Assembly (NCBI GenBank): GCA_027056485.1
Contig: JALUKQ010000023.1
Span: 1,488-40,655, forward strand
Direction: 5' to 3'
Length of the DNA: 39,168 nt
Source of the DNA: Campylobacteraceae bacterium
GTDB taxonomy: Bacteria; Campylobacterota; Campylobacteria; Campylobacterales; Sulfurovaceae
In this document: one piece after another, positions 9,770 to 36,799 of the stretch
Layout of the letters: the number at the start of each line of letters is the position of its first letter
Position numbering within the stretch: position 1 is the stretch's first letter
Position numbers and translations under genes: made by a program
Notes under the pieces: model-generated
The model's input: only the letters and a program-made list of their open reading frames with translations
Database searches by the model: none
What the model was told of the DNA's origin: nothing

Positions 9770-10540
9770 TTAAAGCTCTAAAACCAATTTAACAGGACAA
9801 TGGTCAGAACCCATCACCTCATCTAAAATATCTGCATCTACAATTTTATCTTTTAAATCATCTGAAACATAAAAGTAGTCGATTCTCCAGCCCACGTTTC
9901 TAGCTCTTGCCCCTGCTCTGTATGACCACCAAGAGTATCTGTCTACTTCATCACCTTTTACATGCCTAAAGGTATCTATAAACCCAGCTTCTAAAAGTTT
10001 GTCTTGCCATTCACGTTCTATGGGTAAAAAACCAGATATTTTTTCATTGGCTTTAGGTCGTGCCAAATCTATAGGATGATGAGCTGTGTTGACATCGCCA
10101 CAAATGATGATAGATTTTCCCTCTTTTCGTAGTGCTAAGATGTGTTCTAAAAAACGCTCATAAAATGCCAACTTATACTCTAAACGCTCTTCGTTTCGTT
10201 GACCATTAGGAAAATAGACATTAAAGTAGGCGATGTTATCAAAGTGATACTCATTGATTCGCCCCTCATTTAAAATATCTACATGCTCACAAGTAAAAGC
10301 TTCTCCCTCTTTGTCGGTATAGAGTGCCACACCAGACTGCCCTTTTTTGGATGAAGAATTTATATGTTCAACCTCATAATCACGCTCAAAAATAGTTTCA
10401 GGGATCTGCTCTGCTTCTGCTTTTATCTCTTGCAGACCTAAGAAGTCTACATCTGCTTCATCTATCCACTTTAGAGCCTCTTTCTTCTCTACTGCTCGTA
10501 TACCATTTACATTCCATGATATGAAAGTAGTTTTTGCCAT
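9770..10540 (-). CDS. xth: exodeoxyribonuclease III (AP endonuclease)
   Basis: Mg-dependent AP endonuclease and 3'-5' exonuclease of base-excision repair. 256 residues from the ATG at 10538-10540, chosen because AAAGG lies just upstream and the protein then begins MAKTTFISWNVNGIRA as in the family; an in-frame ATG ten codons earlier has no such support. Catalytic motifs are all visible: WNVNGIRA, FLGLQEIKAE (metal Glu), CGDVNTAH (Asp/Asn), WWSYRAGARARNVGWRIDYF and the final GSDHCPV (Asp-His). It heads a two-gene operon with the zinc-finger gene. The upstream 780 bp hold no gene. Confidence 0.95.
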   Translation of the reverse strand: MAKTTFISWNVNGIRAVEKKEALKWIDEADVDFLGLQEIKAEAEQIPETIFERDYEVEHINSSSKKGQSGVALYTDKEGEAFTCEHVDILNEGRINEYHFDNIAYFNVYFPNGQRNEERLEYKLAFYERFLEHILALRKEGKSIIICGDVNTAHHPIDLARPKANEKISGFLPIEREWQDKLLEAGFIDTFRHVKGDEVDRYSWWSYRAGARARNVGWRIDYFYVSDDLKDKIVDADILDEVMGSDHCPVKLVLEL

Positions 10541-10605
10541 ACTTTTACCTTTTAATATTATATCTCTCATAAAAATTTTTATAGCATTATATCATTATAT
10601 TAAAG

Positions 10606-10611
10606 TATAAT
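10606..10611 (+). promoter_or_regulatory. candidate rightward -10 box into the gene-free stretch
   Basis: TATAAT within aaagtataattacgc, about 120 bp before the first structured repeat. Campylobacterota sigma-70 promoters often lack a -35 box. AT-richness makes a chance match possible. Confidence 0.35.
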
Positions 10612-10668
10612 TACGCAAAAAAAGTAAGATAAGTTTGATGAAATATATGATTAAAAAAAGAAGATACT

Positions 10669-10686
10669 GTGGGCAAGATTGCCCAC
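10669..10686 (+). other. GC-rich hairpin GTGGGCA-AGAT-TGCCCAC
   Basis: A perfect 7-bp stem with a 4-nt loop, far more GC-rich than its surroundings. No U-tract follows in either direction, so it is not a standard terminator. It may be a 5' structure of the RNA proposed for 10.7-11.3 kb or a dispersed palindromic element. Confidence 0.5.
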
Positions 10687-10730
10687 CTAAGTATGTAATT
10701 AACCCCCTAAGAAGAACTCCAATCCTCCAT

Positions 10731-10990
10731 GTATAACCTAAGTTAGTTAGGTTATGTGCTTCTACTGTGCCTATTTGGCAAGAGTAAAATAAAAATATAA
10801 AGTAGAAGCGATAAAACTTTTATGAGAGACACATCTAAAATAGGAATAAAAAAATATGTCTCTCATGGCAAAAGTATAACCATAAGATGTGGGTTAATCG
10901 TGTTACACAAACACTACACAAATCCCTAAATAAAGGGCTTTAAATAGGATAAAACATAAAAGAGTAATCTTTGATATTTTATTTTTAATA
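10731..10990 (+). ncRNA. candidate structured RNA, copy 1 of 2
   Basis: Part of the 780-bp stretch between xth and thrC with no coding potential that I can see. Hairpins in order: ATAACCTA/TAGGTTAT (10733-10755); an outer stem GCTTCTACT/AGTAGAAGC (10758-10766 with 10801-10809) enclosing TGCC-TATTT-GGCA (10768-10780); ATGAGAGACA/TGTCTCTCAT (10822-10831 with 10857-10866); a CCCT/AGGG loop near 10924-10937; and AAAGA-gtaa-TCTTT followed by a T-rich tail near 10960-10990. The strand is proposed from that terminator-like end. The same series recurs 300-320 bp to the right. I do not recognise the family; it could also be a non-transcribed repeat. Confidence 0.5.
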
Positions 10991-11034
10991 GATAATTTTT
11001 ATATGCTTTTATTAAAATTGATTAGTTACAAGAG

Positions 11035-11310
11035 GTATAACCCAAGCTAGTGGCAGCATGACTTAGGTTATGTTACTTCTGCCGTGCCTATTTGGCAAGA
11101 TGCGTTAAAAAAATATATAAAGCAGAAGGTATAAAAGGTATGAGAAAAACATTTAAAAATAGGAGTGAAAAAATATGTCTCTCATGGCAAAAGTATAACC
11201 ACAAGATGTGGGTTAATTGTGTCACACAAACACTACACAAATCCCTAAATATAGGGATTTAAACAGGATAAAACAGAAAGAAATAATCTTTCATATTTTA
11301 AATTTTAATA
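11035..11310 (+). ncRNA. candidate structured RNA, copy 2 of 2
   Basis: Diverged tandem copy of the element at 10731. The central ~105 nt (from about 11171) differ from copy 1 at about 7 positions. Hairpins: ATAACCCAAG/CTTAGGTTAT (11037-11046 with 11062-11071, one mismatch); CTTCTGC/GCAGAAG (11076-11082 with 11122-11128) enclosing the unchanged TGCC-TATTT-GGCA; ATGAGA/TCTCAT (11140-11145 with 11180-11185, shorter than in copy 1); ATCCCTA/TAGGGAT (11241-11258 zone); and GAAAGA-aataa-TCTTTC with a T-rich tail near 11278-11310. In the second stem an A-T pair of copy 1 is G-C here, a compensatory change. Confidence 0.5.
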
Positions 11311-11320
11311 TTATAAAATA

Positions 11321-12790
11321 CTATAAAAAAGTAAGCATCTCATCTTTAATCTGCTCTTTTTCTACCACAATTGGGTGTTTAATCTCTTTAGAAAAAAGCC
11401 CCTCTATCATAGCAGGTACTTTTTCATTAGTATTTTCGGCTATCCACTGTAAAGCTTCTGTATCATTTTCTGTCTTATCAGAACCTAAAGCTCGTGCTAC
11501 TGTAGTAGAAAACTTTGTCCACTCAGCTGTAGAGTAGATGACACTTTTTAAATTTTTGCTTGTACGTTTCTCGTAAGACTTCATACATGTAGCTGTATGA
11601 GGATCCATAATATAGCCCTCTTTAGCGTATTTACTTATAAACGCTTCACACTCATCATCTTCACTAAACGTTGCTTCAAAATCCTCTTGTATTGATGCCA
11701 GTTCATCAGCTGTTAGTTCGTATCGACCTGTTTCATTCAGTGAATCCATAAGCTCTTTGGTTCGAACTGCTCCAAACTTATCAAAAAGCACACGTTCTAC
11801 ATTTGAACTCTTTAAAATATCCATAGCAGGTGATTCTGTTTTAATAAGCTCTCTTGAACCCATATCATAAACACCGTTTTCTATTAAATCAGTTAAAATA
11901 TTATTTACATTTGAAGCTACCAAAAGTTTCTCTACAGGAAGTCCTGCTTTTTTGGCATAGTATCCACCCAAAACATTTCCAAAGTTTCCTGATGGAACCA
12001 CCAAGTAGATATTTTCGCCCATTTTAATTTCATCTTTTCTTAGAAGCTCTAAATAGGCATGAATATGGTAGATAATCTGAAAAATGATTCGCCCAAAATT
12101 CACTGAGTTTGCAGCTGAAAGTTTAATATTTCTACTCTCTAGCTCTGCGTTGAAATCATCTGAAGCTAAAAGCTCTTTAAGCATATTTTGTGTGTCATCA
12201 AAGTTTCCAACCACACCGATGACTTTTTCATTGTCTGCCTCTTCTGTAACCATTTGTAGACGTTGAACATCAGAGGTTCCACCATCTGGGTAGAGACAAG
12301 CCACTTGGATGTTTGGCTGGTTTTTAAAAGTCTCTAGTGTTGCAGGACCTGTGTCACCAGAGGTTGCAGCCATTATAAGATAATTTTCATTTCGTTTTTG
12401 AGCCTCTTTAGAGAGAATGTAGCCAAACGGTTGTAGTGCCATATCTTTAAAAGCACGAGTTGGACCATGGTAAAGCTCCATCACAAAACAATCATCTTCT
12501 ATTTTGCTTAACGGTACAGGGTTCGAAGGATCATCAAAAGCATCATAACGGTTTAGTGCTTCTTTTAGAGTAGACTCTTCTATGTCTATTTCAAAACTTT
12601 GCAATACATCTAATGCCAACGCTTTATAGTTACTATTAAGATGTTTTTCTAAAAAGTCAATACCAAATTCAGGAAACTTTTCAGGCACATAAATCCCACC
12701 AAAACTTGCAATTGGACTAAGAATAGCCTCTGAAAAATTTACCTTTGGAGATTTTGAACCATCATTACCACGTGTCTCTATAAATTGCAT
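11321..12790 (-). CDS. thrC: threonine synthase
   Basis: PLP enzyme converting O-phosphohomoserine to threonine, the last step of threonine synthesis. 489 residues, the length of the longer bacterial ThrC class. The start MQFIETRGNDG is typical. The PLP lysine is Lys115 in HGPTRAFKDMALQPFG, the phosphate-binding loop is in AATSGDTGPA, and NSVNFGR and PSGNFGN are further cofactor-site motifs. It stands alone: no hom or thrB is near. The 3' end faces the twin structured repeats and the upstream gap to the potassium channel gene is 73 bp. Confidence 0.96.
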   Translation of the reverse strand: MQFIETRGNDGSKSPKVNFSEAILSPIASFGGIYVPEKFPEFGIDFLEKHLNSNYKALALDVLQSFEIDIEESTLKEALNRYDAFDDPSNPVPLSKIEDDCFVMELYHGPTRAFKDMALQPFGYILSKEAQKRNENYLIMAATSGDTGPATLETFKNQPNIQVACLYPDGGTSDVQRLQMVTEEADNEKVIGVVGNFDDTQNMLKELLASDDFNAELESRNIKLSAANSVNFGRIIFQIIYHIHAYLELLRKDEIKMGENIYLVVPSGNFGNVLGGYYAKKAGLPVEKLLVASNVNNILTDLIENGVYDMGSRELIKTESPAMDILKSSNVERVLFDKFGAVRTKELMDSLNETGRYELTADELASIQEDFEATFSEDDECEAFISKYAKEGYIMDPHTATCMKSYEKRTSKNLKSVIYSTAEWTKFSTTVARALGSDKTENDTEALQWIAENTNEKVPAMIEGLFSKEIKHPIVVEKEQIKDEMLTFL

Positions 12791-36604: not shown

Positions 36605-36679
36605 TGGCTCCGGATGTTGGATTCGAACCAACGACCAAATGATTAACAGTCATCTACTCTACCACTGAGCTAATCCGGA
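36605..36679 (-). tRNA. tRNA-Asn (anticodon GTT), downstream copy
   Basis: 75 nt including encoded CCA. The acceptor stem TCCGGAT/ATCCGGA, discriminator G, D-arm GCTC..., T-loop GGTTCGAATCC and anticodon loop CTGTTAA are all visible. It is identical in sequence to the copy at 36725-36799. Confidence 0.96.
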
Positions 36680-36724: not shown

Positions 36725-36799
36725 TGGCTCCGGATGTTGGATTCGAACCAACGACCAAATGATTAACAGTCATCTACTCTACCACTGAGCTAATCCGGA
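36725..36799 (-). tRNA. tRNA-Asn (anticodon GTT), upstream copy
   Basis: 75 nt with encoded CCA, base-for-base identical to the copy at 36605-36679. A leftward -10 box TATAAT (complement at 36837-36842) lies about 38 bp upstream and probably drives both copies as one transcript. Confidence 0.96.

Follow-up and report, generated by a model that had tools for sequence, protein, structure and literature searches.

A multicopy small-RNA family with a predicted CAC direct-repeat promoter in one genus of Campylobacterales

The window, that is, the whole stretch of 39,168 nucleotides analysed here (Campylobacteraceae bacterium, lineage Sulfurovaceae; GCA_027056485.1, contig JALUKQ010000023.1), carries two copies of a non-coding element between xth (9770-10570, minus strand) and the 3' end of thrC (11321-12790, minus strand; gene names from the initial annotation). 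The copies stand in series, as had been reported, and share a stretch of 150 nt at 90% identity (10837-10986 and 11156-11305) together with a second, shorter block, CTTCTAC/CTTCTGC...TGCCTATTTGGCA, at 10759-10783 and 11076-11100; the spacing between copies is 319 for the former and 317 for the latter. When homologues were aligned by eye, the minus strand read in the order CACRATTnnnnCAC, 10 nt, TATACT, about 5 nt and CATGAGAGA..., followed after the RNA start by hairpin 1 with a UUCCUAUUUU-like loop and by hairpin 2, GCUUCUAC...GUAGAAGC, with a small inner hairpin. The predicted features are as follows (R1 is the covariance model described below).

10752..10867, minus strand: sRNA copy 1; R1 match (E 7.4e-15, 110.8 bits) and also one of the 12 seeds; fold z -7.2; predicted 5' end near 10866/10867, hairpin 2 stopping at 10758
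10822..10866, minus strand: hairpin 1 of copy 1, stem AUGAGAGACAUAUUU / AGAUGUGUCUCUCAU, loop with UUCCUAUU; predicted from the fold and from covariation in helix 1
10758..10809, minus strand: hairpin 2 of copy 1, GCUUCUACU...AGUAGAAGC; predicted from the fold and from covariation in helices 2 and 3
10768-10780, minus strand: inner hairpin of hairpin 2 in copy 1, UGCC-AAAUA-GGCA
10873..10878, minus strand: putative -10 box of copy 1, TATACT, its spacing conserved among relatives
10889..10902, minus strand: CAC box of copy 1, CACGATTAACCCAC, a CAC direct repeat with an 11-bp period, separated from the -10 box by 10 nt
11070..11186, minus strand: sRNA copy 2; R1 match (E 9.9e-14, 104.2 bits) and also a seed; fold z -4.3
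11192..11197, minus strand: putative -10 box of copy 2, TATACT
11208..11221, minus strand: CAC box of copy 2, CACAATTAACCCAC

A palindrome, ATAACCTAA...TTAGGTTAT, lies right downstream of hairpin 2 in both copies (10733-10755 and 11037-11071) and also at L027; it may be REP-like or an alternative terminator.

The compensatory change CTTCTAC/GTAGAAG to CTTCTGC/GCAGAAG and the hairpin TGCC-TATTT-GGCA, both named in the initial annotation, are present in the sequence. Its plus-strand RNA was rejected, since both promoter conservation and fold energies point to the minus strand: folded against 200 shuffles, the minus strand gave z -7.2 and -4.3 for copies 1 and 2, with no shuffle as good, and the plus strand folded less strongly (z -5.2, 0/200 shuffles as good; z -2.2, 6/200 as good). 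The proposed boundaries changed accordingly. Out of the roughly 265 bp assigned to each copy, the transcribed part is likely about 115 nt and the remaining similarity is promoter and upstream DNA; the block tctcatggcaaaagtataac, described as invariant, is indeed present, but it is the reverse complement of the -10 box and RNA start; and the AAAGA/TCTTT hairpin with a T-rich tail, taken as the end of each copy, sits upstream of the minus-strand promoter and is therefore no terminator of this RNA. A protein-coding remnant was also rejected, as one plus-strand frame of copy 1 holds many stops and the peptides read from the minus-strand ATG vary in length.

Relatives were collected with R1, a covariance model of 12 RNA sequences without promoter, whose seeds came from a regular expression that needed a -10-like TA..T before CATGA and did not require the CAC box. 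A first MAFFT alignment (A1, 22 sequences) misaligned hairpin 1, and 12 of the 22 were kept for the model alignment (A2); RNAalifold on A2 gave another hairpin 1, and the structure used is that of a RIBOSUM alifold run. At E<=0.1, R1 matched 30 of the 34 genomes of the window's genus at 102 places, of which the best 95 (E up to 0.027) were read with their upstream DNA and the 7 weakest were left out. The window's own genome holds six strong copies (E<=1.1e-7; a pair in the window, a pair on contig 42 and single copies on contigs 152 and 155) and three weaker matches (E 0.005-0.025), and copies lie near each other in series in G000, G019, G023 and G012. Several related non-coding copies per genome are thus found, as in sibling sRNAs of the csRNA/LhrC kind.

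Beyond the genus, R1 at E<=0.01 matched 28 of the 175 genomes of the taxonomic family, all of them from the window's genus and none among the 141 others, and at E<=0.001 only the window's own genome in a sample of 120 genomes of the order; the stricter filters of both searches may lose weak matches. BLASTN of copy 1 found two further clear copies in the own genome and matches in 19 of the 100 genomes searched; those in five genomes outside the genus covered 23-31 nt only and were judged chance. Likewise taken as chance was the one match, in an archaeal MAG, of a pattern scan of wider genome contigs, from which own and near genomes were possibly excluded. Conversely, the CAC box led to members that R1 had missed, namely two copies in series in G013 (L154), a genome with no R1 match, and one more in G022 (L156).

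The initial annotation had matched the element to no known RNA, and the searches agree. Against Rfam 15 at gathering score the whole window returned two tRNAs and nothing for the element, and seven related loci (L197, L190, L170, L173, L221, L076, L085) returned nothing; a relaxed search of 10500-11400 gave sub-threshold matches only (E 2.1-6). For 6S RNA, neither an Rfam match nor, in the folds of the window copies, a long hairpin with a central bubble was found. The family is not named in the titles and abstract starts of the literature searched, a search that mostly did not extend to subscription papers.

Covariation was measured on 61 distinct rows aligned by R1 (62 matches, 53 loci). Paired cells reached 94.0% against 83.7% after shuffling, and double-sided changes 138 cells against 28.3 in shuffled and 15-21 in slid controls; these counts are favoured by the relatedness of the rows and by an alignment fitted to the structure. 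No shuffle and no slid version reached the observed values; at least one double-sided change occurred in 16 of 20 pairs, and helix 1 was weaker, with 89.9% of cells paired. Both hairpins are thus supported by the sequences as kept by compensatory change. Taken together, the proposal of a new ncRNA family has held up, through the lack of an Rfam match, the homologues that the covariance model recovered across relatives and covariation far above both controls, in contrast to its strand, boundaries and terminator. What emerges, and was not visible from the window alone, is a dispersed multicopy family with a common promoter box; it appears to be a real, new small-RNA family, absent from Rfam and, as far as searched, confined to one genus.

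Sites of OmpR-family regulators have a direct-repeat geometry with an 11-bp period. A box of this type, CAC-N8-CAC-N10-TANANT, stands upstream of 79 of the 95 R1 matches read, giving the copies the common promoter with a regulator-type direct repeat that is typical of two-component-controlled sibling sRNAs. Twelve of these 79 are model seeds, and without seeds the count is 67 of 83. The distance from the end of the -10 box to the model start is exactly 5 nt in 72 of the 79. By match quality, the box is present in (58/58 at E<1e-4, 14/22 at 1e-4 to 0.01, 7/15 among weaker matches) the fractions given. Box-bearing copies were found among the R1 matches of 29 of the 34 genomes, with a single copy in 10 genomes and a maximum of 8 per genome. 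The sequences therefore support, as the promoter, a CAC-N8-CAC direct repeat with an 11-bp period, 10 nt, a TATAMT-like -10 box, about 5 nt and the RNA start. Of the 16 matches outside this pattern, a contig end truncates one, and another (G008:C86) does have the box, but at a spacing of 11 nt and not 10. The other 14 make up a second subclass, CATGAGAGTC...TTTTTCCC...GATAACTTTTAA-like, with loci that include L060, L108, L110, L111, L112, L113, L117, L120 and L132; here the -10 box is present and the CAC box absent, so these copies are presumably outside the control of the same regulator. In the window, TGTGTAGTGTTTGTGT lies upstream of the CAC box of copy 1 (10905-10920, minus strand) and at the same place in copy 2; it consists of GTG repeats with an 11-bp period in the opposite orientation, and is perhaps an extra regulator site.

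The CAC box is not restricted to the RNA copies. An earlier pattern was too narrow (2 sites in the own genome) and was replaced by a slightly loose one, which gave 167 sites summed over the 34 genomes of the genus against 4 for a reversed control pattern; of the own genome's 8 sites, 7 accompany sRNA copies and one precedes a cytochrome c gene. With a stricter pattern the box occurred in 113 of the 175 genomes of the taxonomic family and in all 11 genera, the 141 genomes outside the genus holding 128 sites against 5 control sites, thinly in g2 (2 sites in 12 genomes), g5 (1 in 10) and g10 (3 in 13). Among 46 sites read, which were picked from listings without most known sRNA copies and not at random, 32 stand before genes for exported proteins, 10 before two-hairpin RNAs and 4 (L140, L141, L152, L160) before neither. 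The exported proteins comprise glycine-zipper and other lipoproteins, c-type cytochromes, SoxY (in some genomes), OmpA-like proteins and others; 27 of the 32 were translated, their signal sequences being judged by eye. Pfam, run on four target representatives, confirmed cytochrome c, SoxY and glycine zipper, and gave no family for the fourth (L214).

Among the ten RNAs behind a box, four belong to the present family: those of L139 (an R1 match) and L156 and the two of L154. The other six are at L170-L173 and L175 (genus g3) and at L221 (genus g4). The g3 loci (L170, L171, L172, L173, L175) and the g4 locus have two hairpins with C-rich loops (ACATCCCCCAAATGTCC-like in g3), and R1 matched nothing in either genus. 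Since the same box elsewhere stands mostly before exported-protein genes, these patterns suggest that the RNAs may form the RNA arm of a cell-envelope response. We give even odds to a broader reading, in which an envelope-response regulon with an RNA arm that works without Hfq extends through the taxonomic family. The regulator's box, enriched in several genera, would in at least three of them (g1, g3 and one g4 locus) drive two-hairpin RNAs with C-rich loops, too diverged for homology search, and in the window's genus these RNAs would have multiplied to a maximum of eight box-bearing copies per genome.

As the promoter can be read from the sequence, the regulator is probably readable too. In four genomes (G000, G021, G032, G033) the gene immediately downstream of an sRNA copy encodes an OmpR-family regulator, and in 4/4 a kinase gene follows it. 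The G000 regulator has the domains Response_reg and Trans_reg_C, and the G000 kinase, the one scanned, falls into the ArsS family (NF038389, 368 bits against a cut-off of 250). The linked regulator has close orthologues (>=69% identity) in 12 genomes, in 8 of which the upstream DNA, on inspection, held no CAC box. A paralogous regulator is present in 164 of the 175 genomes of the taxonomic family, and naming the regulator by distribution failed because this paralogue is nearly universal; the binder of the CAC box could be the linked regulator or its paralogue. At L183 and L187 a gene for an LTXXQ (Spy/CpxP-like) exported protein lies directly upstream of the orthologous regulator gene, and the upstream DNA of L181, L182 and L186 looks alike.

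With regard to function, UCC, CCU or CCC is present in the hairpin-1 loop region of 79 of 79 copies against 48 expected after letter shuffling, a count to be read with the relatedness of the copies, which are not independent, and with the automatic stem finder behind the loop figures, which misplaced at least one stem. In loop 2 UCC is not enriched (53/79 against 53 expected). Upstream of predicted starts the commonest 5-mer was AAGGA (sample of 327 genes). A set of 220 genes served to compare start sites with internal ATGs: 13 of 18 loops favoured starts beyond their 25 shuffles, with a mean z of about -1 and a strong preference in few, e.g., C155 and C97; the four loops of the window copies (z -0.7, 0.3, -1.2 and 1.7) have no clear preference. 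For 12 of the 18 loops the best single target was sought, and none stood clearly above shuffles (lowest 8/60); a duplex between the C155 copy and the start of a membrane-protein gene (L237; -21.8 kcal/mol) is accordingly not claimed, 8 of 60 shuffles being as good. Hfq (PF17209) was found in 0 of 34 genus genomes with a control positive in 5 of 14, which speaks against an Hfq-dependent sRNA. TTTT occurs near the 3' end in 49 of 95 matches (chance about 25%) and in neither window copy. In one sRNA subfamily (L085, copies at 742 and 10968; L079; L080), a recurrent motif, AAAATAGG(C/T), begins some 20 nt upstream of the CAC box and is complementary to the hairpin-1 loop CCUAUUUU.

Our best reading, to which we give a probability of roughly 70%, is that these are sibling trans-acting sRNAs, switched on by a two-component regulator, whose UCC-containing loop blocks translation starts. 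The copies, two of them in tandem in the window, would be transcribed from the minus strand; an OmpR-family response regulator, with an ArsS-family kinase, would bind the CAC repeat and activate both the sRNA copies and a group of envelope genes. Hairpin 1, through its pyrimidine-rich loop, would pair with Shine-Dalgarno regions of mRNAs and lower their translation without Hfq, and hairpin 2 would protect the 3' end, acting as a terminator where a T-run is nearby, as in about half of the matches. We infer the regulator and the targets; translational repression is favoured by analogy with the csRNAs and CJnc190, for which PMC3091779 and PMC8687705 serve as sources.

Alternatively, the RNAs might bind a protein and not mRNAs, as a 6S-like decoy of RNA polymerase or a CsrB-like sponge. 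Strong hairpins, several copies per genome and conserved unpaired loops would suit such a role, and the mRNA target tests gave no clear target; however, Rfam gave no match to 6S or to families of the CsrB type, the loops have UCC and not repeated GGA, and a single long hairpin with a central bubble is missing, and we judge this unlikely. Improbable, too, is a cis-acting leader or attenuator of the downstream gene. Since both copies share the minus strand with thrC and xth, copy 1 reads toward xth, ending about 180 bp ahead of its listed start; a copy also precedes xth in L009, L010 and L011, and the four copies upstream of the regulator gene share its orientation. Other copies nevertheless occur in varied contexts, those of the window follow one another, each behind a promoter of its own, and the two hairpins form a self-contained unit. 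A leaderless mini-gene, with an RNA starting at AUG (AUG-AGA-GAC...), would fit the AUG at predicted +1 or +2 in 74 of the 79 CAC-box copies and by the recurrence of MR(D/E)IFF, but with peptides of 1-46 aa, 5 of 79 copies without ATG, and the AUG inside helix 1, where pair 4/64 has one double-sided change, we regard it as very unlikely. A mobile repeat (MITE/REP) with no RNA function would account for several copies per genome and for the serial neighbours, but is hardly compatible with a promoter and RNA kept as a unit at fixed spacing between differing flanks, with double-sided changes that keep the stems, and with the lack of noticed terminal inverted repeats in the copies inspected.

Read as sibling trans-acting sRNAs, the family is best filed under a known kind, sibling sRNAs under two-component control. 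The csRNAs of Streptococcus (CiaRH) are likewise a group of sibling sRNAs, each with two stem-loops, and a response regulator drives them via a direct repeat with an 11-bp period. Their box is TTTAAG-N5-TTTAAG, as opposed to CAC-N8-CAC, so the copies here lack a CiaR box; and the pyrimidine motif, compared by description, lies between the hairpins in csRNAs and in the hairpin-1 loop here. The motif beside the hairpin-2 stem is CATA in 44 of the 79 copies, a csRNA likeness absent from the two of the window, TATA in 25 and AATA in 7; the remaining 3 have none of them. LhrC RNAs have a known structure and UCCC motifs; they belong to another organism, and the likeness is by description. According to PMC7602753, the LhrC family of Listeria (LisRK) consists of multicopy sRNAs induced by an envelope-responsive two-component system. 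CJnc190 of Campylobacter jejuni, again alike by description, differs in its antisense partner CJnc180 and processing by RNase III.

CpxQ derives from an mRNA 3' end. The enterobacterial CpxQ, MicA and RybB are the RNA arm of an envelope regulon, as the present RNAs may be, and MicA and RybB are Hfq-dependent, according to PMC7602753; in this they differ from the present family, with Hfq not found in its 34 genomes. A further likeness to Cpx and envelope sRNAs is the LTXXQ gene that precedes the linked regulator in some genomes. The DccRS box of C. jejuni, wTTCAC-N6-TTCACw, has an 11-bp period, as has the CAC box. DccRS itself includes an OmpR-like regulator under which a small number of genes for periplasmic and membrane proteins are activated (PMC9449129); its likeness to the regulators considered here lies in box geometry and target type. 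On this reading, a lineage with no detectable Hfq would gain a multicopy sRNA family, one with links to exported proteins and to genes of periplasmic electron transfer (cytochrome c; SoxY in some genomes). Moreover, the CAC box offers a handle on diverged sRNAs missed by homology, such as the copies in G013 and G022 and the RNAs in sister genera.

Separately, a strongly conserved, RNA-like element of about 150 bp was seen upstream of C114-type regulator genes (L190, L193-L206). At L197 it has a long inverted repeat, GTCTTCAGCATTGTTCACGAG...CTCGTGAGCAATGCTGAAGA, around CTCCTTTG, CTCCCTTG and CTCCTTTG motifs, giving three anti-SD-like motifs. Elsewhere in the window, tandem tRNA-Asn (gtt) genes with equal Rfam scores lie at 36605-36679 and 36725-36799 on the minus strand.
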